From the IMG/VR virus record IMGVR_UViG_3300035698_011365, positions 1 to 64,000 of that record: a stretch of 64,000 bases of DNA; one strand, given 5' to 3'. The DNA is from a virus. Shown here piece by piece: positions 2,183 through 15,294 of the stretch. Each line of letters opens with the position of its first letter. Position 1 is the stretch's first letter. The notes beneath the pieces were generated by a model that had not been told where the DNA came from, made no database searches, and saw nothing but the letters and a program-made list of their open reading frames with translations. Made by a program: the position numbers and the translations under genes.

Positions 2183-2698
2183 TTAGAAAAATACGGCTCC
2201 ACCTACACTGAAGTAGCTGTTGGAGCTGAATTGATTAAATGTATAATCAGCATGAGTGAATGCTAATGTTAATTTGGTGTTGTCTGTCGGCATTATGGCG
2301 CCTACGAGTGAGAATTCCTTCACACCGCCGCCTACTGAGCCTGCAAGAGCTATACCGCCCTTGTGGAGCATTCCTGAGCCAATCGCTAAAGACATACCTG
2401 TAGCAGGCATTGTCCATCCACGATCACCTCTATCGCCTTTAAAGCCACGATCACCTTTGATACTGAGTCCATCAAGGCCGTCAATACCGTCATTTCCGGG
2501 GTCACCCTTAATTCCGATACCTGGATCACCTTTCATGCCTTTGGCACCGGTGGCTCCTGTATCGCCTGTATCTCCCTTGTCACCTTTAAAGATGTCAAGG
2601 TAATTACAACCTCCCCAGCAAGTAGCGTTAGCCATTTGAGGGATAGCGAACATCGTAATCATTGAGAGGGCAATAATAATTATTTTACGTTTTAACAT
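2183..2698 (-). CDS. Secreted collagen-like protein with outer-membrane-anchor-like C-terminus
   Basis: A 171-residue protein in three parts. Residues 1-25 are a classic Sec signal peptide (basic start, hydrophobic core, cleavage after ANA). Residues about 37-95 are an almost unbroken collagen-like Gly-X-Y tract (GDKGDTGDTGATGAKG). The last 75 residues alternate hydrophobic and polar positions and end in aromatic FF (YFSVGGAVFF), as in four-stranded YadA-type anchors. The layout is that of a miniature trimeric autotransporter: signal, stalk, beta anchor. Known of the family: trimeric surface adhesins. Inferred: surface display during infection, perhaps to block superinfection. It lies among early genes, not with the fibres, which argues against a virion part. 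Confidence 0.7.
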   Translation of the reverse strand: MLKRKIIIIALSMITMFAIPQMANATCWGGCNYLDIFKGDKGDTGDTGATGAKGMKGDPGIGIKGDPGNDGIDGLDGLSIKGDRGFKGDRGDRGWTMPATGMSLAIGSGMLHKGGIALAGSVGGGVKEFSLVGAIMPTDNTKLTLAFTHADYTFNQFSSNSYFSVGGAVFF

Positions 2699-2809
2699 AT
2701 TTCTTTCCTTTTTTTGAAATTAGCTAGTAGTCTCTCCTACAAGTCTCGCACACATTTTGTTCGAGGACATTCTTATAAAACAAGAGTCTCTCTTTGTCAC
2801 GGGGTACGT

Positions 2810-3109
2810 TTACGACAAATTCTTATTATATTTGTGATAGAAATCTTTGATAGCCTCTACTCTTAGTAGAATAGCTATAATGGCTATTTTAAGATCTGGA
2901 TTCATTTCTCTGATCCAAACAGTATCTCTAGAACTAGCTCTAAGAGACGTTTTAGGAGTAACATTGTGAATAGTGAGTTTAGCCTCATACGTAGTGTCAT
3001 TAGCTTCAATTTCTAATTGGCCGTGCTCTTTAGCTTTATCTATTATATCTTCAAGGGTTCTGTTTTCAAGTGGGGCAATGATGTTCTCCATTTTAGTTTT
3101 GAGAGACAT
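2810..3109 (-). CDS. Hypothetical phage protein, 99 aa
   Basis: A 99-residue soluble protein. The N-terminal third is helical and charged (ENRTLEDIIDKAKEHGQLEI), followed by beta-like sequence and a hydrophobic helix (KIAIIAILLRVEAIKDFY) near the C-terminus. AAGGA lies 7 nt before the ATG. A 5-bp hairpin with a GGA loop (3136-3148) lies 27 nt upstream in the end of the preceding gene. Function unknown. Confidence 0.6.
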   Translation of the reverse strand: MSLKTKMENIIAPLENRTLEDIIDKAKEHGQLEIEANDTTYEAKLTIHNVTPKTSLRASSRDTVWIREMNPDLKIAIIAILLRVEAIKDFYHKYNKNLS

Positions 3110-3118
3110 GTTTATTCC

Positions 3119-3280
3119 TTATTTGTTTGCAGCAGATGCCGGAGGCATGGCGACTAGGTTCAATCTTCTTTCCACATGGCTCTTTCTACACTCTTCTGTG
3201 CAGAACTTTTTTGTGTACCTGCGAGCAGTAGGCCCCTTGATGTGTACATATTTTTTTCCACATTCATTACAAGTTTTCAT
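3119..3280 (-). CDS. Small four-cysteine zinc-ribbon protein
   Basis: A 53-residue protein beginning MKTCNECGKKYVHIKG with a second pair in KKFCTEECRKSH: C4, C7, C32 and C36 form a CxxC...CxxxC treble-clef or zinc-ribbon arrangement. I chose this start because AGAGG lies 7 nt upstream and the ATG overlaps the stop of the preceding membrane-protein gene (ATGA). The frame is open for 28 more codons upstream, but those are the shadow of the overlapping gene. Likely a nucleic-acid or protein-binding regulator. Confidence 0.65.
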   Translation of the reverse strand: MKTCNECGKKYVHIKGPTARRYTKKFCTEECRKSHVERRLNLVAMPPASAANK

Positions 3281-3462
3281 GTGAATGCCTCTGCGAAGAG
3301 CATCCAGAGCCCCATTACTACACCATAAGGAAAGAATACCAATCCAACTACTAGATGGCCCCATGCCTCAACTGAGGCGCTTATGAAGAGGAACCACAAA
3401 TAGCCAATAAATCCTATGATGGTTGAGCTAACACCCAACAAAGTAAGTAATGTATCCCTCAT
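3277..3462 (-). CDS. Small two-pass membrane protein
   Basis: A 61-residue, very hydrophobic protein with two predicted membrane helices: about residues 6-29 (LTLLGVSSTIIGFIGYLWFL) and 36-56 (GHLVVGLVFFPYGVVMGLWM). Only a short charged turn lies between. It overlaps both neighbours by 4 bp (ATGA junctions), so translation is coupled. Its position among early genes suggests a host-envelope target. Function unknown. Confidence 0.65.
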   Translation of the reverse strand: MRDTLLTLLGVSSTIIGFIGYLWFLFISASVEAWGHLVVGLVFFPYGVVMGLWMLFAEAFT

Positions 3463-3737
3463 GATATTGTTTCCTTTAATTTATCTTTTTCAATTTCTAG
3501 ATCTAATCCTATTAAAGCCATTTCAATTACATTAACTAGTTGTTGAGTATCTACATTACACATAATAGGCTCCCTTAAAAATCCTTTATTGTTTTTAAGG
3601 TCTTGTTTAAGATTATCCATACTAATTTTTAAATTATATCTAAATTTTTCGTTAGAGGTCATAGGTTTTTCCATATGCCACTCATCAACTGTTGGAGAAT
3701 TTAGTAAAGAGTTTGTTGTACCACATGTATTAGGCAT
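3459..3737 (-). CDS. Hypothetical protein with C-terminal LK-x-x-I tail
   Basis: A 92-residue acidic protein; the C-terminal half (PIMCNVDTQQLVNVIEMAL, then EKDKLKETI) resembles the beta strand, helix and KLKxLI tail of the paralogous small proteins at 6.0-8.4 kb. A start at Met22 or Met26 is possible, but the MPNTC start has GGAAT upstream and overlaps the previous gene by 8 bp. Function unknown; membership in the paralogous family is inferred by eye. Confidence 0.55.
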   Translation of the reverse strand: MPNTCGTTNSLLNSPTVDEWHMEKPMTSNEKFRYNLKISMDNLKQDLKNNKGFLREPIMCNVDTQQLVNVIEMALIGLDLEIEKDKLKETIS

Positions 3738-3975
3738 CTTTATTTATTCCTATTAGATTTTGTAATGTCAATCTTGCTTTTTCATGTTCTAGGCCTTTAA
3801 GAGCCCAGAATAGTAGAAGAGCTTGAGATGATGCAGATACCTTGATTTGACGGGATATAGTCATTACTTTTTCTTCATCTTTTGAATACTCTTCAACAAC
3901 TGTATGTCTTAATTTAAATATTCTTATTAGGCTATCTATCGCCTTGAGAGTAGTCTCATCATTGTTTTCAAACAT
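3730..3975 (-). CDS. Hypothetical protein with translation-controlled start
   Basis: An 81-residue helical protein (DETTLKAIDSLIRIFKLRH; ASSQALLLFWALKGLEHEKA) ending in ARLTLQNLIGINKDA, a weak match to the LK-LI tail seen further upstream in the operon. Its ribosome site AGAGGAATTAGG is one complete arm of a 12-bp inverted repeat (3981-4049), so the start is predicted to be hidden when the leader folds. Function unknown. Confidence 0.6.
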   Translation of the reverse strand: MFENNDETTLKAIDSLIRIFKLRHTVVEEYSKDEEKVMTISRQIKVSASSQALLLFWALKGLEHEKARLTLQNLIGINKDA

Positions 3976-3980
3976 ATCAC

Positions 3981-4049
3981 CCTAATTCCTCTGTAAGTAG
4001 CTTCAGGTGGCTGGCACAGCCACAAAGGAGCGCATTAAGAGGAATTAGG
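3981..4049 (-). promoter_or_regulatory. Leader RNA structure sequestering a ribosome binding site
   Basis: On the minus strand CCTAATTCCTCT (from 4049 to 4038) pairs perfectly with AGAGGAATTAGG (3992 to 3981), 12 bp. The second arm is the Shine-Dalgarno region of the gene starting at 3975. Inside the loop is a second perfect hairpin, GTGGCTG-TGC-CAGCCAC (4007-4023). The arrangement is typical of a translational switch, either binding a protein or unfolding with coupled translation. A complementary CTCCTTT stretch also lies in the loop. Confidence 0.55.
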
Positions 4050-4059
4050 TATAATATCA

Positions 4060-4224
4060 TTACTGAGGCTTTCTTGGTCTTCCCGGGCTTGATTTAACCC
4101 AATGAGCTTGTGTGGTGTCGGGATTAGCGTCTGCGTATGCTTTTTTACACCATCTACCGGTGTCTGATCTGCGATAAGCTTTACGATGTAAAACTCCTCT
4201 GATCATCTTACGATGACTTGCCAT
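4060..4224 (-). CDS. Small very basic protein, possible nucleic-acid binder
   Basis: A 54-residue protein, MASHRKMIRGVLHRKAYRRS and onwards, with about 14 Lys/Arg, ending in SPGRPRKPQ, an AT-hook-like SPGRPRK core. It has an AAAGGAGA ribosome site 8 nt before the ATG. The extreme charge and the GRPRK motif suggest DNA or RNA binding. Known: AT-hooks (core GRP flanked by basic residues) bind the minor groove of AT-rich DNA. Inferred: that this protein does so. Confidence 0.6.
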   Translation of the reverse strand: MASHRKMIRGVLHRKAYRRSDTGRWCKKAYADANPDTTQAHWVKSSPGRPRKPQ

Positions 4225-4350
4225 TATGGTTCTCCTTTAATTAAAATGGTGAACCATCTTACCATATTATCATTATATTTCTAGTTTATTAGCTGCTATG
4301 GCTTTTCTCAATGTCTCTTCGTTTTATTCCTTACTGCTTGTAATTATTTA

Positions 4351-4388
4351 GGGGGATGAAAGAGAATGAGTGTAAACTTTCATCCCCC
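4351..4388 (-). terminator. Strong 12-bp hairpin, terminator-like
   Basis: GGGGGATGAAAG at 4351-4362 pairs perfectly with its complement at 4377-4388 around a 14-nt loop, about 30 nt downstream of the stop of the 4421-4660 gene on the minus strand. Only a mixed TAAATAATT follows rather than a pure U-run, so it may be a weak terminator or an mRNA 3'-end protector. Confidence 0.5.
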
Positions 4389-4420
4389 AAGGCAGAAAAC
4401 AGGAGAGTAAACTACCTTAA

Positions 4421-4660
4421 TTATTTTTTAGTGAATAAGACAGAATTCTCTTCTAGAGCTTCTTGCCTCATTAGTTGCTTTTTTATTTTGAAAGCGAATT
4501 CAAGCTTTTCAAGTATATTATCGTAACCGCTTAATGATTTGTTTTGAATCATCCTCTGCAGCTTACGCTCTTTAATTTTATCTATTAAGTTACCTAATGT
4601 ATGTAAGCTTAATTTAGGGAGAGAGCTAGTAAATGACTCACTTTCTTTTGAACCTGTCAT
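4421..4660 (-). CDS. Hypothetical phage protein, 79 aa
   Basis: A 79-residue basic helical protein (TLGNLIDKIKERKLQRMIQN, then DNILEKLEFAFKIKKQLM). AAGGAG lies upstream of the ATG. It is the first gene after the polymerase operon; a GGA-loop hairpin (4753-4771) lies about 100 nt upstream and the strong 4351-4388 hairpin lies downstream, so it could be expressed as a single-gene unit. The KERKLQRMI segment faintly resembles the LK-LI motif of its neighbours. Function unknown. Confidence 0.55.
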   Translation of the reverse strand: MTGSKESESFTSSLPKLSLHTLGNLIDKIKERKLQRMIQNKSLSGYDNILEKLEFAFKIKKQLMRQEALEENSVLFTKK

Positions 4661-4752
4661 CTTATAGGCTCCTTATGGTAAATACCTGTATCTTTTTGAA
4701 AGTTAGTTTATAGGTTTAGATGTTTTAAGTACTTCTGAAAAAATACTCCCCA

Positions 4753-4771
4753 AAATTGCCGGAGGCAATTT
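4753..4771 (-). promoter_or_regulatory. 3-nt-loop hairpin (GGA loop): candidate virion RNAP promoter or terminator
   Basis: AAATTGCC-GGA-GGCAATTT, an 8-bp perfect stem with a 3-nt loop, lies between the stop of RNAP subunit 2 and the next gene. The 3-nt loop with a central G on the template strand is the architecture known for N4 virion RNAP promoters. However, on the minus strand the right arm ends in a short T-run (CAATTTTGG), so it could instead terminate the polymerase operon. Confidence 0.45.
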
Positions 4772-4792
4772 CAGAGAGCGAGTTTAGCGTTC

Positions 4793-5785
4793 TTAACTTA
4801 GAGCATATTCAGCACTTATCATTTGTTCTGGAAGTGTATGTGACATCTTCTTATGAATCAAGTTTGGTTCACATATTTCACGTAGTATATCCTGAAGGAG
4901 ATTGCTTTGTGCTATCTCAATTAGAGTATCTAAATAGTTCTGTCTTACTTGGTTCATATAATTAGGTGAAGCCCAGAATGAGTCATGTATCGATAACAAA
5001 GCAAAGCCAGCAATATGCGCTTTCCTTATTTGTTCCCTAACAACATATCCATCAATAGAATGAACTATGTTAGCAGCTAGAGATAGACCTGTAGGTGATG
5101 GTTCATTGATATACATTCTATGAGTGAATGTAGCATGATCCAATTCATCTATTTCAATCTTCTTATCAACACGCTGCATGACCGGTACTACGGCTCTGTG
5201 GCCATCTGGTAACGTCCATGAATGTCTATAAGCTTCAGGATCCCAGCATCCCTGCATATCTTCCATACATTCTAAAGCTCCCGGTAAGAGATAACCTATT
5301 ACTTCATAGAATAGCTCTAGAGCAGGTGTATCAACTCCAAAGACTTGCTTGGGTTGATTCTTAGAACCATAGAAAGTAGTCATCACAGGTGGTTTGACTA
5401 TTTCCTTACTGTATTCCTCTTCAGAGGCATTAGACATGATATCTGCTACTGCTTGATAGACATCTTCCCTAGTACCTGAGTTGATTAGGTTAACTGCTGC
5501 TGCAGTAGCCTCACAACCACTCAAGCAAGCCATTATCTGAAGGCCTGAAGCGGTGGCATCAAGTCCCATGATGAATCCTGTAGGAATCTTAGATTCAGCA
5601 CTCATACGGGCTCTGACGGCCTTCCTGAATAGGACTGGTTCTTTAGCATCATCTGATTGCTCATAGAGATCAATACATGATTGGGTAGAAGACCACTCAA
5701 GTCTTTTACTCCATGTTAGCTTATCAAAACCATATTGATTGGCTATATCTATATTTATATATTCTGTTCCAGTAAATTGTTGCAT
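4793..5785 (-). CDS. N4-type early RNA polymerase subunit 2 (catalytic half; N4 gp16-like)
   Basis: A 330-residue C-terminal half of a T7-like single-subunit RNA polymerase, working with the subunit at 8437-9339 to transcribe middle genes. Catalytic motifs are in order: motif A GLDATASGLQ (about residue 75), motif B KPPVMTTFYGS (about 140-150), motif C LLSIHDSFW (about 265), giving the two metal-binding aspartates and the Lys/Tyr of the O-helix. The start at 5785 has AGGAG 7 nt upstream; an ATG eight codons earlier lies before that ribosome site. N4 gp16 is about 400 residues, so this copy is somewhat short. In N4 the two subunit genes are adjacent; here about 2.6 kb of small genes lies between them. 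Confidence 0.88.
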   Translation of the reverse strand: MQQFTGTEYINIDIANQYGFDKLTWSKRLEWSSTQSCIDLYEQSDDAKEPVLFRKAVRARMSAESKIPTGFIMGLDATASGLQIMACLSGCEATAAAVNLINSGTREDVYQAVADIMSNASEEEYSKEIVKPPVMTTFYGSKNQPKQVFGVDTPALELFYEVIGYLLPGALECMEDMQGCWDPEAYRHSWTLPDGHRAVVPVMQRVDKKIEIDELDHATFTHRMYINEPSPTGLSLAANIVHSIDGYVVREQIRKAHIAGFALLSIHDSFWASPNYMNQVRQNYLDTLIEIAQSNLLQDILREICEPNLIHKKMSHTLPEQMISAEYALS

Positions 5786-5813
5786 AAGTTTTCTCCTGTT
5801 TATATGCATTAGG

Positions 5814-6026
5814 TTAAGTATTAATTAGTTTTTTAAGTATTTTCCGTTGTTTTTGTAGACTACCCCAATAGAATACAGCTAAGTTCATACCATCACTATG
5901 AGAGATTGTTGGATCTATAGCTTGAAGTGCGGTACCTAGTACTTTTAGTTTAACTCTTGGATTAAGAGCTATCTGTTTATGTAATTCTTCTATATGAGAT
6001 GTATTTAGCTTGAGATCCTTATTCAT
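5814..6026 (-). CDS. Small protein with LKKLI C-terminal tail
   Basis: A 70-residue protein ending in QKQRKILKKLINT. It lies directly upstream of RNAP subunit 2 and overlaps the previous stop (ATGA). The body (HIEELHKQIALNPRVKLKVL) is shorter than and only loosely similar to the paralogous family here, but the terminal basic LKKLI motif is shared. Function unknown. Because it lies inside the polymerase operon it should be expressed with both subunits. Confidence 0.6.
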   Translation of the reverse strand: MNKDLKLNTSHIEELHKQIALNPRVKLKVLGTALQAIDPTISHSDGMNLAVFYWGSLQKQRKILKKLINT

Positions 6027-6292
6027 GCTTTAATTAGGCTTCTCAAGGTATGCTCTGCATATGCCTTGTCTACGTCGATAAGCAGTTCTCCAAGAGCAAG
6101 AGCGTCTTTTAGTTTAAGATGTATTGTAGCACTCTTCTCATCTTCATAGGCTTGAAGTATTATAGTATATTCTTGTTTCGTTTTAGATCGAGTTGAACTA
6201 TTATTTGGTTCTAATGTTAAATCCATATGATCATTAGCTTGTGCCTCACAGTTTGCTTCAAATACTATTAATTCTTTTGATGACGTTGACAT
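6023..6292 (-). CDS. Member of the small LK-LI paralogous family
   Basis: An 89-residue protein. The C-terminal part follows the family pattern: a beta hairpin (EYTIILQAYEDEKSATIHLK), a helix (KDALALGELLIDVDKAYAE) and the tail HTLRSLIKA. Neighbours share this arrangement with little identity outside the tail, as expected for old tandem duplicates. It is translationally coupled by overlap. Role unknown. The setting between the two polymerase subunits suggests that the family acts in early infection. Confidence 0.6.
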   Translation of the reverse strand: MSTSSKELIVFEANCEAQANDHMDLTLEPNNSSTRSKTKQEYTIILQAYEDEKSATIHLKLKDALALGELLIDVDKAYAEHTLRSLIKA

Positions 6293-6295
6293 ATT

Positions 6296-6562
6296 CTATT
6301 CCTTGTCTTCTGTTATTAGTTTTTTAAGTTCATTTGAGGCATGTAATTGATGTAATGCATTTAAAGTTTCTCTGAGCCTATTAGAAGTATCTTTAGTAAG
6401 AGTAGCTGAAGTCTTTTCACCGCTTTCAGTGACTTGTATGTTTATTAAGAATCCAGTAGATTTATCCTCTATTACATCTATTTTTATTGAATCTCTCTTT
6501 CTTGTTGAGCAGAGAGAGGTAAATATCCCAGTCCATGCGTCTGTAATTCTTAATATACTCAT
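6296..6562 (-). CDS. Member of the small LK-LI paralogous family
   Basis: An 88-residue protein, start taken as the ATG at 6562, which overlaps the upstream stop (ATGA) and has AGGTGATG upstream; a TTG two codons earlier is in frame. Family pattern: strands SIKIDVIEDKSTGFLINIQV and TSATLTKDTS, a helix RLRETLNALHQL and the tail NELKKLITEDKE. Function unknown; see the array described around 5.8-8.4 kb. Confidence 0.6.
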   Translation of the reverse strand: MSILRITDAWTGIFTSLCSTRKRDSIKIDVIEDKSTGFLINIQVTESGEKTSATLTKDTSNRLRETLNALHQLHASNELKKLITEDKE

Positions 6563-7083
6563 AGGCAATCCACATCACCTGAAGAATTCCTAAATGAGGT
6601 AGACATAATCTCTGAATAGTAACCATTAGAACTGCCATGCCACCTTAAGACAGCATAGTTCTTAGCAGTAGCTATTCTGTAGAAAGTCCATGTATTAGAT
6701 TCATCATCATATACTTGGTCAGGGTCTGCTACATCCTCAACAGGCTCAATGAGTTTCTTGAGCTCCAGCTTTCTAAGCTCTATTGAATTTACTAGAGGAT
6801 TTACTGGAGGATCTATATCATGATAAGAATTTGATGCCTCATCAAATTGTATGATAGGATCTCCTACAAGACCTTGTAAGCTTCCATTAATGTCTGATAG
6901 GTACACATGCTCACAACAGTCTTGAGTGTGGTACATTTCTAGTCTTGAACCATCACTAAATACAAATGCAAGTGAGCTTGCATTCATGTAGGTATTAGGG
7001 CTATTAGTAGCCTCGTCATAATCATAGTCTTTGATTATCTCAACTAATACTTTATTGAGTATTTTATTTGTTATTTCTTTCAT
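6559..7083 (-). CDS. DUF7448-like protein with an inserted LKKLIEP segment
   Basis: A 174-residue protein. Residues about 38-75 (FVFSDGSRLEMYHTQDCCEH, then VYLSDINGSLQGLVGDPI) and 128-165 (TWTFYRIATAKNYAVLRWHG, then SSNGYYSE) match the two blocks of a widespread uncharacterised phage family that I recognise as DUF7448. Between them is an extra stretch with LRKLELKKLIEPVEDVADPD, the motif that ends the neighbouring small proteins. So the motif can also be carried internally. Function of the family is not known; Cys-Cys-Glu in the QDCCEH block is a conserved hallmark. Confidence 0.65.
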   Translation of the reverse strand: MKEITNKILNKVLVEIIKDYDYDEATNSPNTYMNASSLAFVFSDGSRLEMYHTQDCCEHVYLSDINGSLQGLVGDPIIQFDEASNSYHDIDPPVNPLVNSIELRKLELKKLIEPVEDVADPDQVYDDESNTWTFYRIATAKNYAVLRWHGSSNGYYSEIMSTSFRNSSGDVDCL

Positions 7084-7084
7084 A

Positions 7085-7336
7085 TTAATCTCCTGTTATT
7101 GGTGGATCTATTAAGTCTTTAAGTTTTTGTCTTTTTATACATTCAGCTTGTTCTAGAAGTATTGCAGCTAATTCACGAACTTCCTCTATATTTAAAAATA
7201 CAGAGTCATTTGCTGAATGTAATGATAGTTCTATAGCTAATGGAGCTCCTCCATCATCATTAAGAGCATAGTAAATTTTCCCACTGGATTCTTTGACTTT
7301 AAAAGTATGCTTTTCAAAGCGATCTTCTTTACTCAT
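7085..7336 (-). CDS. Member of the small LK-LI paralogous family
   Basis: An 83-residue protein with the clearest family layout: strands KIYYALNDDGGAPLAIELSL and DSVFLNIEEV, a helix RELAAILLEQAECIKRQ and the tail KLKDLIDPPITGD. The SLHSANDSVFLNIEEVREL region lines up by eye with INTTANVPLLLTADQVDEM in the 8134-8437 gene. Function unknown. Confidence 0.65.
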   Translation of the reverse strand: MSKEDRFEKHTFKVKESSGKIYYALNDDGGAPLAIELSLHSANDSVFLNIEEVRELAAILLEQAECIKRQKLKDLIDPPITGD

Positions 7337-7341
7337 GTAAA

Positions 7342-7602
7342 TTACTCAGCATCACTGGGTTTAATCATCTTAAGAAGTTCATGCTTAGTCATATGATGTA
7401 GTGCAGAATCAATGTATTCTCTTAATTCTAATAGCTCTTCTTTGCCTACTATTACTACAGGCTCTTTTCCACTGTGTATATCAAGTCTGAAGAATACTTT
7501 ATTGTCTGAATTATAAGATACTTCAAGGGTATCTTCGTCATCCCTAATACATGATAGCTTAAATAATTTACTAAAGCGTTCGTCATTATTTTGTGCAGTC
7601 AT
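7342..7602 (-). CDS. Member of the small LK-LI paralogous family
   Basis: An 86-residue protein: strands DTLEVSYNSDNKVFFRLDIH and EPVVIVGKEE, a helix LLELREYIDSALHHM and the tail KHELLKMIKPSDAE. It overlaps the upstream gene by 4 bp. It shares the strand, acidic helix and basic tail arrangement with its neighbours. Function unknown. Confidence 0.65.
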   Translation of the reverse strand: MTAQNNDERFSKLFKLSCIRDDEDTLEVSYNSDNKVFFRLDIHSGKEPVVIVGKEELLELREYIDSALHHMTKHELLKMIKPSDAE

Positions 7603-7847
7603 GGGTGTATCGCTCCTACTAAGTTATTATGTTGAATTGACCATGACTCCCATTCATGATTTGGATCAGGAATAAAGACCATTGTTACTCTTGTAACATC
7701 ATCAAAGTGTTTAATATCTGCATCTCTACCATAAAAAGAAGTATCATCTTCATGGATCTCATGTTTAACAATCCAACCACCAAATACCTTCATTCTTGAT
7801 ATAAGAGCATCATTCATAGGATAGAATTTATCAGCCAATAGAGTCAT
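7599..7847 (-). CDS. Hypothetical phage protein, 82 aa
   Basis: An 82-residue soluble protein without the LK-LI tail, although it lies inside the array. It begins MTLLADKFYPMNDALISRMK and has a beta-rich centre with RVTMVFIPDPNHEWESWSIQ. Start and stop overlap its neighbours by 4 bp on both sides. No family recognised with confidence. Confidence 0.6.
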   Translation of the reverse strand: MTLLADKFYPMNDALISRMKVFGGWIVKHEIHEDDTSFYGRDADIKHFDDVTRVTMVFIPDPNHEWESWSIQHNNLVGAIHP

Positions 7848-8137
7848 GTTAATTTACCTTCTAGTATGAGTTTAAGTCTATGTTTTTTATAGCTTTCAAT
7901 ATAGTCTGCAAGATTGTTGGATAACTCTTCTAAAGTATCTAAGCTAAGGTTTGTTTGAGTCTCTATGTCTGTTATAATTCCAGCAATATGTCTGTCCCTA
8001 TTAGAGGCTCTTATGCTAAATTGGAAGTTACTACTTAAGTCGTGTTCTTCAGGAAGAGAGATACTCAAGGTATCTTCTTTTCTCTCACAACACTTTATCA
8101 AAAGAACATGTGCAAAGGATTCCCAGTTATCATTCAT
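7844..8137 (-). CDS. Member of the small LK-LI paralogous family
   Basis: A 97-residue protein: strands DTLSISLPEEHDL and NFQFSIRASNRDRHIAGII, a helix LDTLEELSNNLADYIESYK and the tail KHRLKLILEGKLT. Its ATG overlaps the TGA that ends the +1 frame of the upstream gene, which helps to place the true end of that gene. Function unknown. Confidence 0.65.
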   Translation of the reverse strand: MNDNWESFAHVLLIKCCERKEDTLSISLPEEHDLSSNFQFSIRASNRDRHIAGIITDIETQTNLSLDTLEELSNNLADYIESYKKHRLKLILEGKLT

Positions 8138-8437
8138 GGTTCTAATACCATAAGTAACTTCATTTTTTTGCGTTCATCTCTTATAAGTATAAGCTTATTA
8201 ATCATTTCATCTACTTGATCAGCTGTAAGAAGTAAAGGAACATTGGCTGTGGTATTTATTCCTAGCCTCAAACTCTTTCATCCCGTTTCTTAAAGATGCT
8301 TCTTTGAAGTGAGAAGTAAGAAGATAAACAGCAGCTTCTGGTACTTCTGTTAAAATAGGAGGCGTAGTTGATAAAGTAAGACAGTCCTTATATTCTGTAG
8401 CACATGTAGCTATTTTATTATCTTCATATATATCCAT
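8134..8437 (-). pseudogene. LK-LI family gene interrupted by a +1 frameshift
   Basis: The first frame (8219-8437, 72 codons, MDIYEDNKIATCATEYKDCL) starts in a TAATG overlap with RNAP subunit 1. After about residue 55 the +1 frame carries the family signature: SLRLGINTTANVPLLLTADQ, then a helix and KKMKLLMVLEP, ending at 8134-8136 in an ATGA overlap with the next gene. Joined, the protein would be about 100 residues, like its paralogues. The zero frame instead ends in an unrelated low-quality tail. Either a recent indel, a sequencing error, or a programmed shift near 8270-8285. Confidence 0.55.
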
Positions 8438-9339
8438 TAGGTTATTAACTCCTTCTTCTTTAAATTAAGTATAGCTTTCTTAAAAGAAGTGCTCTGTAAG
8501 TTTACTTGATAACCTTGTGAATATACTCTCCCACGTTTATCAAATTTCCAATTCAAATAGAACTGGTTCCCTTGCTTGATTAGATCTTCATAAACATGTC
8601 TAGATGAAATTACGATACGAAGAAAATTGGACATTTTCTCTGGGGTATCGAGAGGTCTCTTAGACTTCTCTTCTTCCAGAAGTACTGCCTTGTCTAGACA
8701 TAAAGGGATGGCGCCAGCAATATTTAGAATATCTAATGCTTGATACTCTTCATGATGATTTCCTGAGCCAAGAATTACAGAGTCATTCTTAGTTAAGTAG
8801 CCTGAAGTATAGTTATTTGTGATGGGTTGTGGTTCACAAATCATAGGTGGCAAATACTTCTTGTCCTCAAGTTCCTGTAGCACTGACTCATCTAGTTTGT
8901 AATTTGACTCCAACATTATTGAGCCAGTCTCACTATTTTTTGCTAGTATGATGTCATACAGGTCTGTCTCACATACCACTGTAAGAAGCTCTGCAGCTGT
9001 TTTGATACCAGCATAAGCGTTTTCGAACTTCAGTACCTGAGCGAGCCTCGCTGAGGCTGCTTGGATAGGTTGTTGACCTACTGGTGGTACTGTTATGATT
9101 AGGATTTCATCAACAATATCTGAAATAAGTACATTCTTTCTGAGATGGTCTACCCTAGCTTGTTTACTGTGGTAGTAATCTTTACCGGTGATGTAATTGA
9201 TTACTTGTTTTGTGGCTTGTCTCTTCAATAATTTGAAGTCCATTTGTTTAAGAGCATCAGTAATAATCTTTCTGATATTATGCCTTGAAAAGCTGTCTTC
9301 TATTTGTGCTTGAAGTATATGTGAATGTAATATAGCCAT
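8437..9339 (-). CDS. N4-type early RNA polymerase subunit 1 (N-terminal half; N4 gp15-like)
   Basis: A 300-residue N-terminal half of a T7-like RNA polymerase. It ends just after the hallmark FDKRGRVYSQGYQVN, equivalent to the DxRGRxY motif that contacts the template in T7 RNAP. The catalytic half is encoded at 4793-5785. Length fits N4 gp15 (about 270). The start has ACAGGAGA upstream, the same ribosome site as subunit 2. In N4 the heterodimer transcribes middle genes and is made from early mRNA. Only the first 3 bp overlap the next small gene. The C-terminal ILNLKKKELIT resembles the tails of the small proteins that follow, perhaps by chance. Confidence 0.85.
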   Translation of the reverse strand: MAILHSHILQAQIEDSFSRHNIRKIITDALKQMDFKLLKRQATKQVINYITGKDYYHSKQARVDHLRKNVLISDIVDEILIITVPPVGQQPIQAASARLAQVLKFENAYAGIKTAAELLTVVCETDLYDIILAKNSETGSIMLESNYKLDESVLQELEDKKYLPPMICEPQPITNNYTSGYLTKNDSVILGSGNHHEEYQALDILNIAGAIPLCLDKAVLLEEEKSKRPLDTPEKMSNFLRIVISSRHVYEDLIKQGNQFYLNWKFDKRGRVYSQGYQVNLQSTSFKKAILNLKKKELIT

Positions 9340-9362: not shown

Positions 9363-9680
9363 TTAATTAGTTAGTAGTTCTTTAAGTTCTCGTTCTGCGT
9401 GGATAGTTTTTACACATGTATCTTGAGCAACAAAATAAATAGGTGATTTATCGTGTGCTAGTTTAATACAGAATTGTTCTGTTCTTCCTAATATATGAAC
9501 CAATTTGAAATTATATTTTATACTTAATTCTTTATGTTTACGATTATAAACAATAGGAATTTTAATATATCCACCTCTCTTTAGTACATCTATTATTAGT
9601 AATATTTGAGCCAATGTATGTTCTTTCATTATTCTGTTTTCCCATTTTTTATGTTGAAGCATATTAAATGCCGGAGGCAT
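9363..9680 (-). CDS. Small protein with LKELL tail, first gene of the polymerase operon
   Basis: Up to 105 residues. The first start (MPPAFN, at 9680) lies inside a GGA-loop hairpin. If that hairpin is a promoter, the real start is internal, probably MKEHTLAQILLIIDVLKR at 9629 (88 residues). The C-terminus follows the LK-LI family: FCIKLAHDKSPIYFVAQDTC, then AERELKELLTN. It opens the operon containing both RNAP subunits. Function unknown. Confidence 0.55.
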   Translation of the reverse strand: MPPAFNMLQHKKWENRIMKEHTLAQILLIIDVLKRGGYIKIPIVYNRKHKELSIKYNFKLVHILGRTEQFCIKLAHDKSPIYFVAQDTCVKTIHAERELKELLTN

Positions 9681-9815: not shown

Positions 9816-10112
9816 TTAGAATAAACCAGCTGTTGCTTCTTCTTTTTGATCATTCCATGTATATGAAATGTCAAGTTCAACATCAGGATTCGCACGGATA
9901 AATTCAATGAATTTAACAATACGAGCTTGATGAGCAATAGCTTCAGATTTAGCAGTTGAAGGATCACGCAATTCGTTAGCTAGTGGAATACCACCTAGAC
10001 GCAATTTGTTAGCGCCTTTAGCTTTAACATCAATGTTGAACCAACCCTGCGTATCAGGAAGGGCTACTGCAGTTACATTTGATTTCTTCGCGGCTTTATT
10101 TTGAACACTCAT
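9816..10112 (-). CDS. Single-gene early unit, hypothetical protein of 98 aa
   Basis: A 98-residue soluble protein, MSVQNKAAKKSNVTAVALPD then GWFNIDVKAKGANKLRLGGI, mixed alpha/beta with an acidic C-terminus (ELDISYTWNDQKEEA). AAAGGAA lies before the ATG. It is the only gene in a unit bounded by a hairpin promoter (10167-10185) and tandem terminators, so it is likely to be made in large amounts very early. Its codons are less AT-biased than those of its neighbours, consistent with high expression. N4 makes an early single-stranded-DNA-binding protein, gp2, for RNAPII recruitment. I cannot tell whether this is its counterpart. Confidence 0.7.
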   Translation of the reverse strand: MSVQNKAAKKSNVTAVALPDTQGWFNIDVKAKGANKLRLGGIPLANELRDPSTAKSEAIAHQARIVKFIEFIRANPDVELDISYTWNDQKEEATAGLF

Positions 10113-10739: not shown

Positions 10740-10847
10740 TTAAAATGGCCAGATGTTATACGCATCGCCAATGTTATAAATAATATACAAGTTCGTAACA
10801 GCTACAAATGCCACTGCTATCGAATAGATAAATGAAATCATTTTCAT
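10740..10847 (-). CDS. Very small membrane protein, 35 aa
   Basis: MKMISFIYSIAVAFVAVTNL then YIIYNIGDAYNIWPF: one transmembrane helix with a short polar tail. It has AAAGGAG 7 nt before the ATG, its ATG overlaps the stop of the XRE-sigma4 gene (ATGA), and its stop is followed by the ribosome site of the SLOG gene. These features strongly support a real gene in spite of its size. Function unknown; host-membrane targeting is possible. Confidence 0.7.
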   Translation of the reverse strand: MKMISFIYSIAVAFVAVTNLYIIYNIGDAYNIWPF

Positions 10848-11404
10848 ATTTTAACTCCTTTAGATGTAAGTTTAGGTTTTAAATCACGATAACATTTGTG
10901 AATGATCTGACGAACACGTTCACGAGTTACGTTATGTTTTGCACCAATGTCTTCTAAGGTATAATTGTTATGGAGCATTTCAAGCATGTCTTGAGCTCTT
11001 TCAGGAAGAGTCTTAATAGCATCATCAATGATAGCAGATCTCTGATCATTTATCACTTTTTGTTCTAGATCACTTTCACCGTTTTCAATGCTTACAAGCT
11101 CTTCTATGTTGACCTCCAGCTCTGCCATTTTCTTGTCTTTAGGTATAGTAAGCAGCCTTCTTGGAAATAGCTGTACAGGCATTACATTTAATGCTTCGCA
11201 TATTGCTATTACTGATGGTTTGTAATCACCGTCAACCTTATAAGGAGAGGTCTTTAGAGCACATATTGCTCCAACAGTTGTTGGGTTAACATTAGAAGCT
11301 CTAGCAAGGTCTGCTTGATTCATTCCTTTGCTTTTAAGAATACGCATAATATGTGCATTCTTGACTTTTATCTGTAATAGATAATCTTTTTCAGTATTAC
11401 TCAT
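10844..11404 (-). CDS. XRE helix-turn-helix / sigma-70 region 4 fusion transcription factor
   Basis: A 186-residue regulator with two DNA-binding parts. Residues about 17-80 form an XRE-type helix-turn-helix (MRILKSKGMNQADLARASNV, then NPTTVGAICALKTSPY). Residues about 115-178 resemble sigma-70 region 4: LPERAQDMLEMLHNNYTLED, then IGAKHNVTRERVRQIIHKCY, the classic TLEDIG/VTRERVRQI core that binds -35 elements and the host polymerase beta flap. There is no region 2, so it cannot act as a full sigma factor. It could redirect or block host polymerase, or act at the host-type promoter near 13.56 kb. Made early from the 12193 hairpin unit. Confidence 0.82.
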   Translation of the reverse strand: MSNTEKDYLLQIKVKNAHIMRILKSKGMNQADLARASNVNPTTVGAICALKTSPYKVDGDYKPSVIAICEALNVMPVQLFPRRLLTIPKDKKMAELEVNIEELVSIENGESDLEQKVINDQRSAIIDDAIKTLPERAQDMLEMLHNNYTLEDIGAKHNVTRERVRQIIHKCYRDLKPKLTSKGVKI

Positions 11405-14752: not shown

Positions 14753-15065
14753 TAAATTCACTAAGCTTGATAGAAGAGTATTCGCCAATAAAGATATCAG
14801 TGACGGCGCTGTGAGATTGTATGGCTACTTGTGCGGATTAAGAAATGGTGCTAACTTCAGTGATACGTATATCAAGAAAGCACTTAACCTAAGTCAAGCA
14901 GTGCTATACCGGCGTAAGAAAGAACTTAAAAATTTGGATCTACTCCTAATTGACCAAGTAAGCCCAAGAGTTTATATTGCTTATATTGGTTTCAGTAGTT
15001 TCGGAGCAACGCAGGTAAAGCATATGTGGAAGGATGAAGAGGATTTGCCTGATGAATGTCTTTGA
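14685..15065 (+). CDS. Winged helix-turn-helix DNA-binding protein
   Basis: About 126 residues. From about residue 24 it reads LDRRVFANKDISDGAVRLYG, YIKKALNLSQAVLYRRKKEL, then NLDLLLIDQ: the helix-turn-helix and wing of the winged-helix domain found in replication initiators and phage regulators. AGGTGG lies upstream of the ATGATG at 14685/14688; ATG 14676 is also in frame. At the head of the late block it may control late or packaging genes, or may bind replication DNA. Function inferred from the fold only. Confidence 0.6.
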   Translation: MMSATIQIKRMDTVIIRHNLPTSKFTKLDRRVFANKDISDGAVRLYGYLCGLRNGANFSDTYIKKALNLSQAVLYRRKKELKNLDLLLIDQVSPRVYIAYIGFSSFGATQVKHMWKDEEDLPDECL

Positions 15066-15294
15066 TGAAGACTTCGATCCATATAAAACAGAATTAGAGC
15101 ATACGAAGAGAGAGCTTCGTAGGCTAATAGATCCCCCAAAACCTACAACTACAAAGTATGTATTCAAGTTAAAAGAGTACCAAAGGAAGGTGTTACACGA
15201 AATGGATGAAGCATCCTTTTTCTCTGCAGGTCGTGGAGGTGGTAAGAGCAGACTAATGAATATGACTAGTCTAAAAACTAAATTAAAACCATAA
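15052..15294 (+). CDS. Walker-A-only protein with an LRRLIDPP motif
   Basis: An 80-residue protein starting at the ATG at 15052 (AGAGGA upstream). It has the acidic start MNVFDEDFDPYKTELEHTKR, then ELRRLIDPPKP, the motif shared with the early small proteins, then a sequence resembling the start of a helicase or terminase ATPase: FKLKEYQRKVLHEMDEASFF then SAGRGGGKSRL. The GRGGGKS P-loop is intact, but the protein stops 17 residues later, with no Walker B. So it is a truncated ATPase, a regulator that mimics one, or a fragment left by rearrangement. Confidence 0.5.
   Translation: MNVFDEDFDPYKTELEHTKRELRRLIDPPKPTTTKYVFKLKEYQRKVLHEMDEASFFSAGRGGGKSRLMNMTSLKTKLKP

Follow-up and report, generated by a model that had tools for sequence, protein, structure and literature searches.

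The window analysed here is a 64-kb stretch (positions 1 to 64,000) of a 73,673-base virus record of the N4-like type in IMG/VR (IMGVR_UViG_3300035698_011365). The subject is an array of small paralogous genes with a common C-terminal LK-LI tail, located between the two subunit genes of the N4-type RNA polymerase (RNAPII). RNAP1, encoding the N-terminal subunit, lies at 8437-9339 and RNAP2, encoding the catalytic subunit, at 4793-5809, both on the minus strand, as are the other genes listed for the locus. RNAP1 was assigned by 34% identity to its counterpart in the related contig L003 and by homologues in 57 open reading frames (ORFs) of relatives. RNAP2 matched PHROG 2051 (expectation value, E, 2e-109) and PF00940 (E 2.6e-24), and the closest RNAP2 proteins found were those of contigs L001 (59% identical) and L018 (56%). 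RNAP2 more probably starts at 5785, following the leader ATAAACAGGAGAAAAC; a leader ATAAACAGGAGA is common to both polymerase genes. As a preceding reading of this DNA from its letters (hereafter the sequence-only reading) had stated, the subunit genes are adjacent in N4, where a gap of 47 bp was measured, and about 2.6 kb apart here. The gap is filled with ten small overlapping ORFs, many of them with common start and stop bases. The same reading placed the genes within an 'early RNA polymerase', which was inexact: RNAPII is an early product but transcribes the middle genes, whereas early transcription in N4 is the task of the virion RNA polymerase (PMC4496689).

Judged by their sequences, five of the gap ORFs constitute one diverged paralogous family: 6023-6292 (89 residues, tail HTLRSLIKA), 6296-6562 (88 residues, NELKKLITE), 7085-7336 (83 residues, QKLKDLIDPP), 7342-7602 (86 residues, HELLKMIKP) and 7844-8137 (97 residues, HRLKLILEG). 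Two further members are located in the RNAP1-RNAP2 gap of L001 (5258-5497 and 5743-5985). Membership was assessed by a leave-one-out test, in which a profile made from the remaining members was run blind over approximately 3,800 ORFs, taken from related loci as well as from the window itself. Rank 1 was obtained for 6296 (E 1e-7), 7342 (E 2e-6), 7844 (E 4e-6), 6023 (E 7e-4) and each of the two L001 genes, and rank 2 for 7085 (E 0.09). As controls, 12 sets, each of seven small genes, were drawn at random from the same genome; none of the 84 trials reached rank 3 or better. Following removal of the last 16 residues, 6296, 7342 and 7844 remained at rank 1, so that their kinship exceeds the tail alone, while 6023 fell to rank 13 and 7085 to rank 144. 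Conserved columns span the whole length of the proteins and comprise a Cys at strand 1, D.[LIM].[LIVY], F.I.I, L, L...L and [HNQ].LK.LI; the alignment is too diverged to support a pattern scan.

A sixth member seems to be split over two overlapping frames. The ORF at 8134-8271 encodes, in another frame, a C-terminal half with the last strand, the helix and a tail KKMKLLMVLEP (leave-one-out rank 3 of 3812), and the ORF at 8219-8437 is probably the N-terminal half, since its IATCATEYKDCLTLS weakly resembles strands 1-2 of the family. Such an arrangement could stem from an assembly error, from decay or from frameshifting. The claim that six genes follow one plan was thus borne out for five of them and, in the case of 8134, for the C-terminal half only. 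The gene at 3459, proposed as a possible carrier of the motif, ranked 281, its copy of the motif being at chance level, and the body of 5814 ranked 643; neither groups with the family. For 9363, rank 32 was obtained, and hhalign gave P 0.045 over strands 3-4 and the tail. When the family profile was searched against 28 phage records, solid members were found only in the gap of the window (five) and in that of L001 (two). Searches by tblastn with 7342 and 7085 against 50,697 phage records yielded no match at E 10. Scans of IMG/VR found no relative for 6296 or 7342, and the L001 member matched its own contig only. Against PHROG and Pfam, the gap proteins gave noise-level matches, apart from the DUF7448 protein described below; at the locus, RNAP2 too matched above noise.

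Structures of two members were predicted separately using AlphaFold. The model of 6296 has four strands and a C-terminal helix, with a predicted local distance difference test score (pLDDT) of 74 (77-89 in sheet and helix); in that of 7342 (pLDDT 69), three strands are clear, and a two-residue bridge is present in addition to the helix. Both models agree in placing the LK-LI segment within one long C-terminal helix that follows the beta strands. In Foldseek searches of the PDB, rows 1-11 for the 6296 model were all PUR-alpha (5fgo: E 0.04, probability 1.00), and for the 7342 model PUR-alpha occupied the first four rows, with Borrelia Pur-alpha and SP_0782 on top. VIA-align of 6296 gave Z 7.4 for both human PURA repeat III (2.6 Å over 67 residues) and Drosophila PUR repeat III (2.2 Å over 64 residues) and Z 6.9 for Borrelia Pur, followed by Whirly, MRP1/2, Sub1, PC4 and T5 PC4. 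A fold search of BFVD returned mostly uncharacterised phage proteins (best E 0.03). Searching PDB sequences with the family profile gave weak unrelated matches; EF_3132 (3pm7), which is also among the entries of the fold list, had E 0.13.

A resemblance to a single PUR or PC4 repeat of the PUR/PC4/Whirly superfamily is thereby moderately supported, below certainty, and several observations weigh against it or against the wider reading preferred below. Every structural Z is below 8, a range that the tool warns can be background, and the models rest on seven sequences, with pLDDT values of only 69 and 74. The Pfam PC4 profile (PF02229) matched nothing at E 10 in the record of the window or in L001, while finding the T5 homologue, used as positive control, at E 7e-9; hhalign of the family against T5 PC4 likewise yielded nothing. 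Acidic isoelectric points (5.0-5.2) were obtained for four of the five window members, which is unusual for nucleic-acid binding. Finally, the spacing of conserved columns suggests that the conserved tail residues lie on another helical face than those of the first helix half, which could mean a separate docking helix. Because the fold scores fall short of certainty, sequence support is lacking and members are acidic, we refer to a PUR/PC4-like predicted fold and not to a member of the PC4 family.

Tails were counted as [LIM][KR]x[LIM][IL] at the ORF end, with expectations derived from shuffled tails. Five of the ten gap ORFs carry the motif (0.6 expected), compared with two of 73 other genes (0.95 expected); across the relatives there was no enrichment (21 of 907, 14 expected, shuffle maximum 23). 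Its recurrence in a late gene at 15052 (ELRRLIDPP), which the sequence-only reading had reported, is at chance level. This peptide is borne by an 86-residue ORF at 15034-15294 that has a Walker A-like SAGRGGGKS and is possibly a truncated or interrupted terminase start. Three carriers beyond the family lie at the locus. The protein encoded at 6559-7083 belongs to DUF7448 (PF24240, E 7e-23, 81.4 bits against a cut-off of 27) and has, at about 6740-6785, a lineage-specific insertion with ELRKLELKKLIEP; the motif noted inside this protein is thus real, and the insertion with its ELKKLIEP is missing from six homologues and uses codons that differ from those of the other tails. The ORF at 5814-6026 encodes a basic 70-residue protein with the tail ILKKLINT and a body unrelated to the family. 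Upstream of RNAP1, 9363-9680 encodes a basic protein with the tail ELKELLTN, a doubtful distant member whose start may be internal. The motifs claimed for these two gene ends are therefore present, although their ranks do not establish kinship of the bodies.

The DNA of the tails is more similar than would be expected from codon usage, so that part of the tail repetition is attributable to recent copying. For 5814, 6296, 7085, 7844 and 9363, mean identity is 15.2 of 24 bases, against 11.8 (standard deviation 0.6) predicted from the amino acids and early-gene codon usage, and none of 5,000 simulations reached the observed value. Moreover, the ends of 5814 and 9363 align over about 90 bases together with the RNAP2 and RNAP1 leaders behind them (local score 59; 2,000 shuffles gave at most 49). 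Given this alignment and the common leader ATAAACAGGAGA, the addition of genes seems to have been accompanied by duplication of a joint in which a gene end is followed by a polymerase leader. In L001 the tails have the same peptide written with TTA, the commonest Leu codon of that contig. These codons and the different ones of the DUF7448 copy make a conserved DNA signal unlikely, and peptide conservation plus copying within the window genome fits best. Short stretches of homology at the gene ends probably acted as recombination joints and so allowed the copying.

Among N4-like relatives, the RNAP1-RNAP2 gap ranges from about 0 (near contact) to 3.2 kb, or the subunits are fused into one chain of about 500-630 residues (L003 at 5893-7674, L012, L013, L017, L019, L026, L028, L032, L052 and L057). 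HNH endonuclease genes are present in the gap of L007 and L020. A second tailed family, ending in (V/L)PxE(L/I)(K/R)xxxLLL, gave 15 matches in seven contigs (L023, L027, L029, L030, L033, L041 and L051), and all placeable matches lie in the gap or just upstream of RNAP1 (for example L029 6242-6996 and L041 5988-6959). No hhalign profile match was found between this family and that of the window, so that two lineages have expanded unrelated tailed families at the same place. In N4-like phages, the junction is thus a hotspot at which genes are inserted and families expand. In L001, an insert containing an ORF of HNH type (6998-7780) interrupts RNAP2 itself (5998-7994), whose C-terminal piece resumes at 7830; this insert looks like an intron with a homing endonuclease. 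Separately, Pectobacterium phage phiA41 (L007) encodes, at 2442-7326 and 10744-10986, at least seven early small proteins that have an LDxIRTxxLLG-like motif in their interior. This makes three instances in which early N4-like proteins repeat a short motif.

Other genes were recorded at and around the array. The ORF at 7599-7847 encodes an unrelated 82-residue protein (KVFGGWIV) outside the family, with a similar gene at the same place in L001 (5044-5229). A candidate for an RNAPII cofactor like Drc or gp2 is encoded at 9816-10112, as suggested by its position and weak similarity; its product has no PHROG family. Further away, 10844-11404 encodes a 186-residue protein with an N-terminal helix-turn-helix and a sigma-factor-like C-terminal region (PHROG 351, E 2e-12), and 2183-2698, in the early-strand region, a 171-residue protein that starts like a signal peptide and contains collagen-like GXX repeats.

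We tentatively prefer the reading that the junction is a hotspot with an array of PUR/PC4-like paralogs, that these self-associate through a helix whose end is the LK-LI tail and that the products are nucleic-acid-associated accessory factors. In the lineage of the window, the array consists of diverged paralogs of about 85 residues, each predicted, with moderate support, to form a curved antiparallel sheet and, after it, a single C-terminal helix, of which the tail would be the conserved end. In PC4-like proteins, the helices usually form the dimer interface and the sheet binds nucleic acids (PMC8545432). Since the tail ends the family's own helix and the helix of PC4-like proteins is a dimer interface, self-association is the simpler reading; by analogy with PUR and PC4, the tail helix would most likely serve homo- and heterodimerisation among the paralogs. 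The DUF7448 insertion and the tails of 5814 and 9363 may draw other proteins into the same assembly, and the tails would be kept for their peptide, yet also copied as DNA in the window genome. The proteins would be made early, together with RNAPII, and would act as small nucleic-acid-associated accessory factors on RNAPII transcription, or else on the host or its defence.

The paralogy and the shared terminal motif put forward by the sequence-only reading are supported: the members are related, the predicted folds agree and the tails of the gap exceed chance, the reverse in each case of the outcomes it had set against itself. Its step to one common docking partner is unproven, however, the tail being the end of the family's own helix. 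A tail acting as a portable docking peptide, through which otherwise dissimilar small proteins would attach to a single partner outside the family, such as RNAPII, appears somewhat unlikely. The same peptide does occur beyond the proven family, in the DUF7448 insertion with its different codons and on 5814 and 9363; the unrelated second family has a shared tail of its own at the same site, and the helical phase shift and the conserved [HNQ] ahead of the tail fit as well. Yet most carriers are one family with the tail inside a shared helix, the duplicated DNA joint explains the tails of 5814 and 9363, and the partner remains putative. It is very improbable that the tail is a translated repeat element acting in DNA or RNA close to the next gene start, as a promoter or as a signal for processing or translation, even though each copy lies about 20-55 nucleotides upstream of such a start and the excess identity of the tail DNA would be accounted for. 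The copies track tailed genes and not particular downstream genes, no copy of comparable score exists elsewhere, L001 retains the peptide using TTA codons, and the DUF7448 copy is internal and in other codons.

As to function, it is quite possible that small genes for host takeover or anti-defence gather at the junction as a hotspot, independently of what RNAPII does. The content of the gap is hypervariable and includes HNH genes, DUF7448 and further small genes, its paralogs are strongly diverged, and AcrIIA22 is a PC4-like anti-CRISPR of hypervariable loci (PMC8545432). Against such cargo, two lineages hold an expanded paralog family in the gap and not mixed cargo alone, and no defence-related match turned up, the defence library itself not having been searched. 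Unlikely, in our estimate, is that the family includes RNAPII cofactors like the single-stranded DNA-binding recruiters N4 gp2 and LUZ7 Drc, or the postulated promoter-melting protein. The genes sit between the RNAPII subunit genes, N4 RNAPII needs single-stranded DNA-binding gp2 and probably also an unknown melting protein (PMC4496689), and the fold nearest to the 7342 model is that of Borrelia Pur, a protein that separates DNA strands (PMC3764826); but the bodies are acidic, a candidate Drc-like gene is already present at 9816-10112 and relatives have RNAPII without the family. Improbable, too, is the more specific proposal that heterodimerising PUR-like proteins of the array open AT-rich DNA and recruit the split RNAPII via the common C-terminal helix, thereby supplying the promoter-melting factor, the tailed families of other lineages serving the same task.

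It is not yet understood how promoters are located and opened by N4 RNAPII, for which a melting protein 'X' has only been postulated (PMC4496689), and the tandem tailed families provide named candidates for accessory factors. Alternatively, the junction marks a hotspot worth mining for host-directed phage proteins. In addition, short shared gene ends may help phages to multiply small genes.

Of the known systems, PUR domain proteins (Borrelia Bpur; repeat III of Pur-alpha) are those that both models match best in structure; they are alike in size and in the predicted four strands and C-terminal helix, and Borrelia Pur acts as a small homodimer in separating DNA strands (PMC3764826). The window family differs in the absence of a sequence match, in being mostly acidic, in the extended helix with its LK-LI tail and in forming tandem paralogs in a phage operon. 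PC4/Sub1-like proteins (the T5 homologue, AcrIIA22) show likeness in topology, small size and occurrence in phages (PMC8545432), whereas the window family is recognised neither by Pfam PC4 nor by hhalign. N4 gp2 and LUZ7 Drc, the RNAPII cofactors, are likewise early small proteins of N4-like phages, and Drc-like genes lie near RNAPII genes; the gap proteins have no PHROG match above noise, the gp2 and Drc sequences not having been compared directly, and the Drc-like candidate at 9816-10112 is separate. Closest in arrangement is the second tailed family of the seven N4-like contigs which, although unrelated to the window family in sequence and ending in a different tail, has the same junction, tandem small paralogs and a common C-terminal tail.

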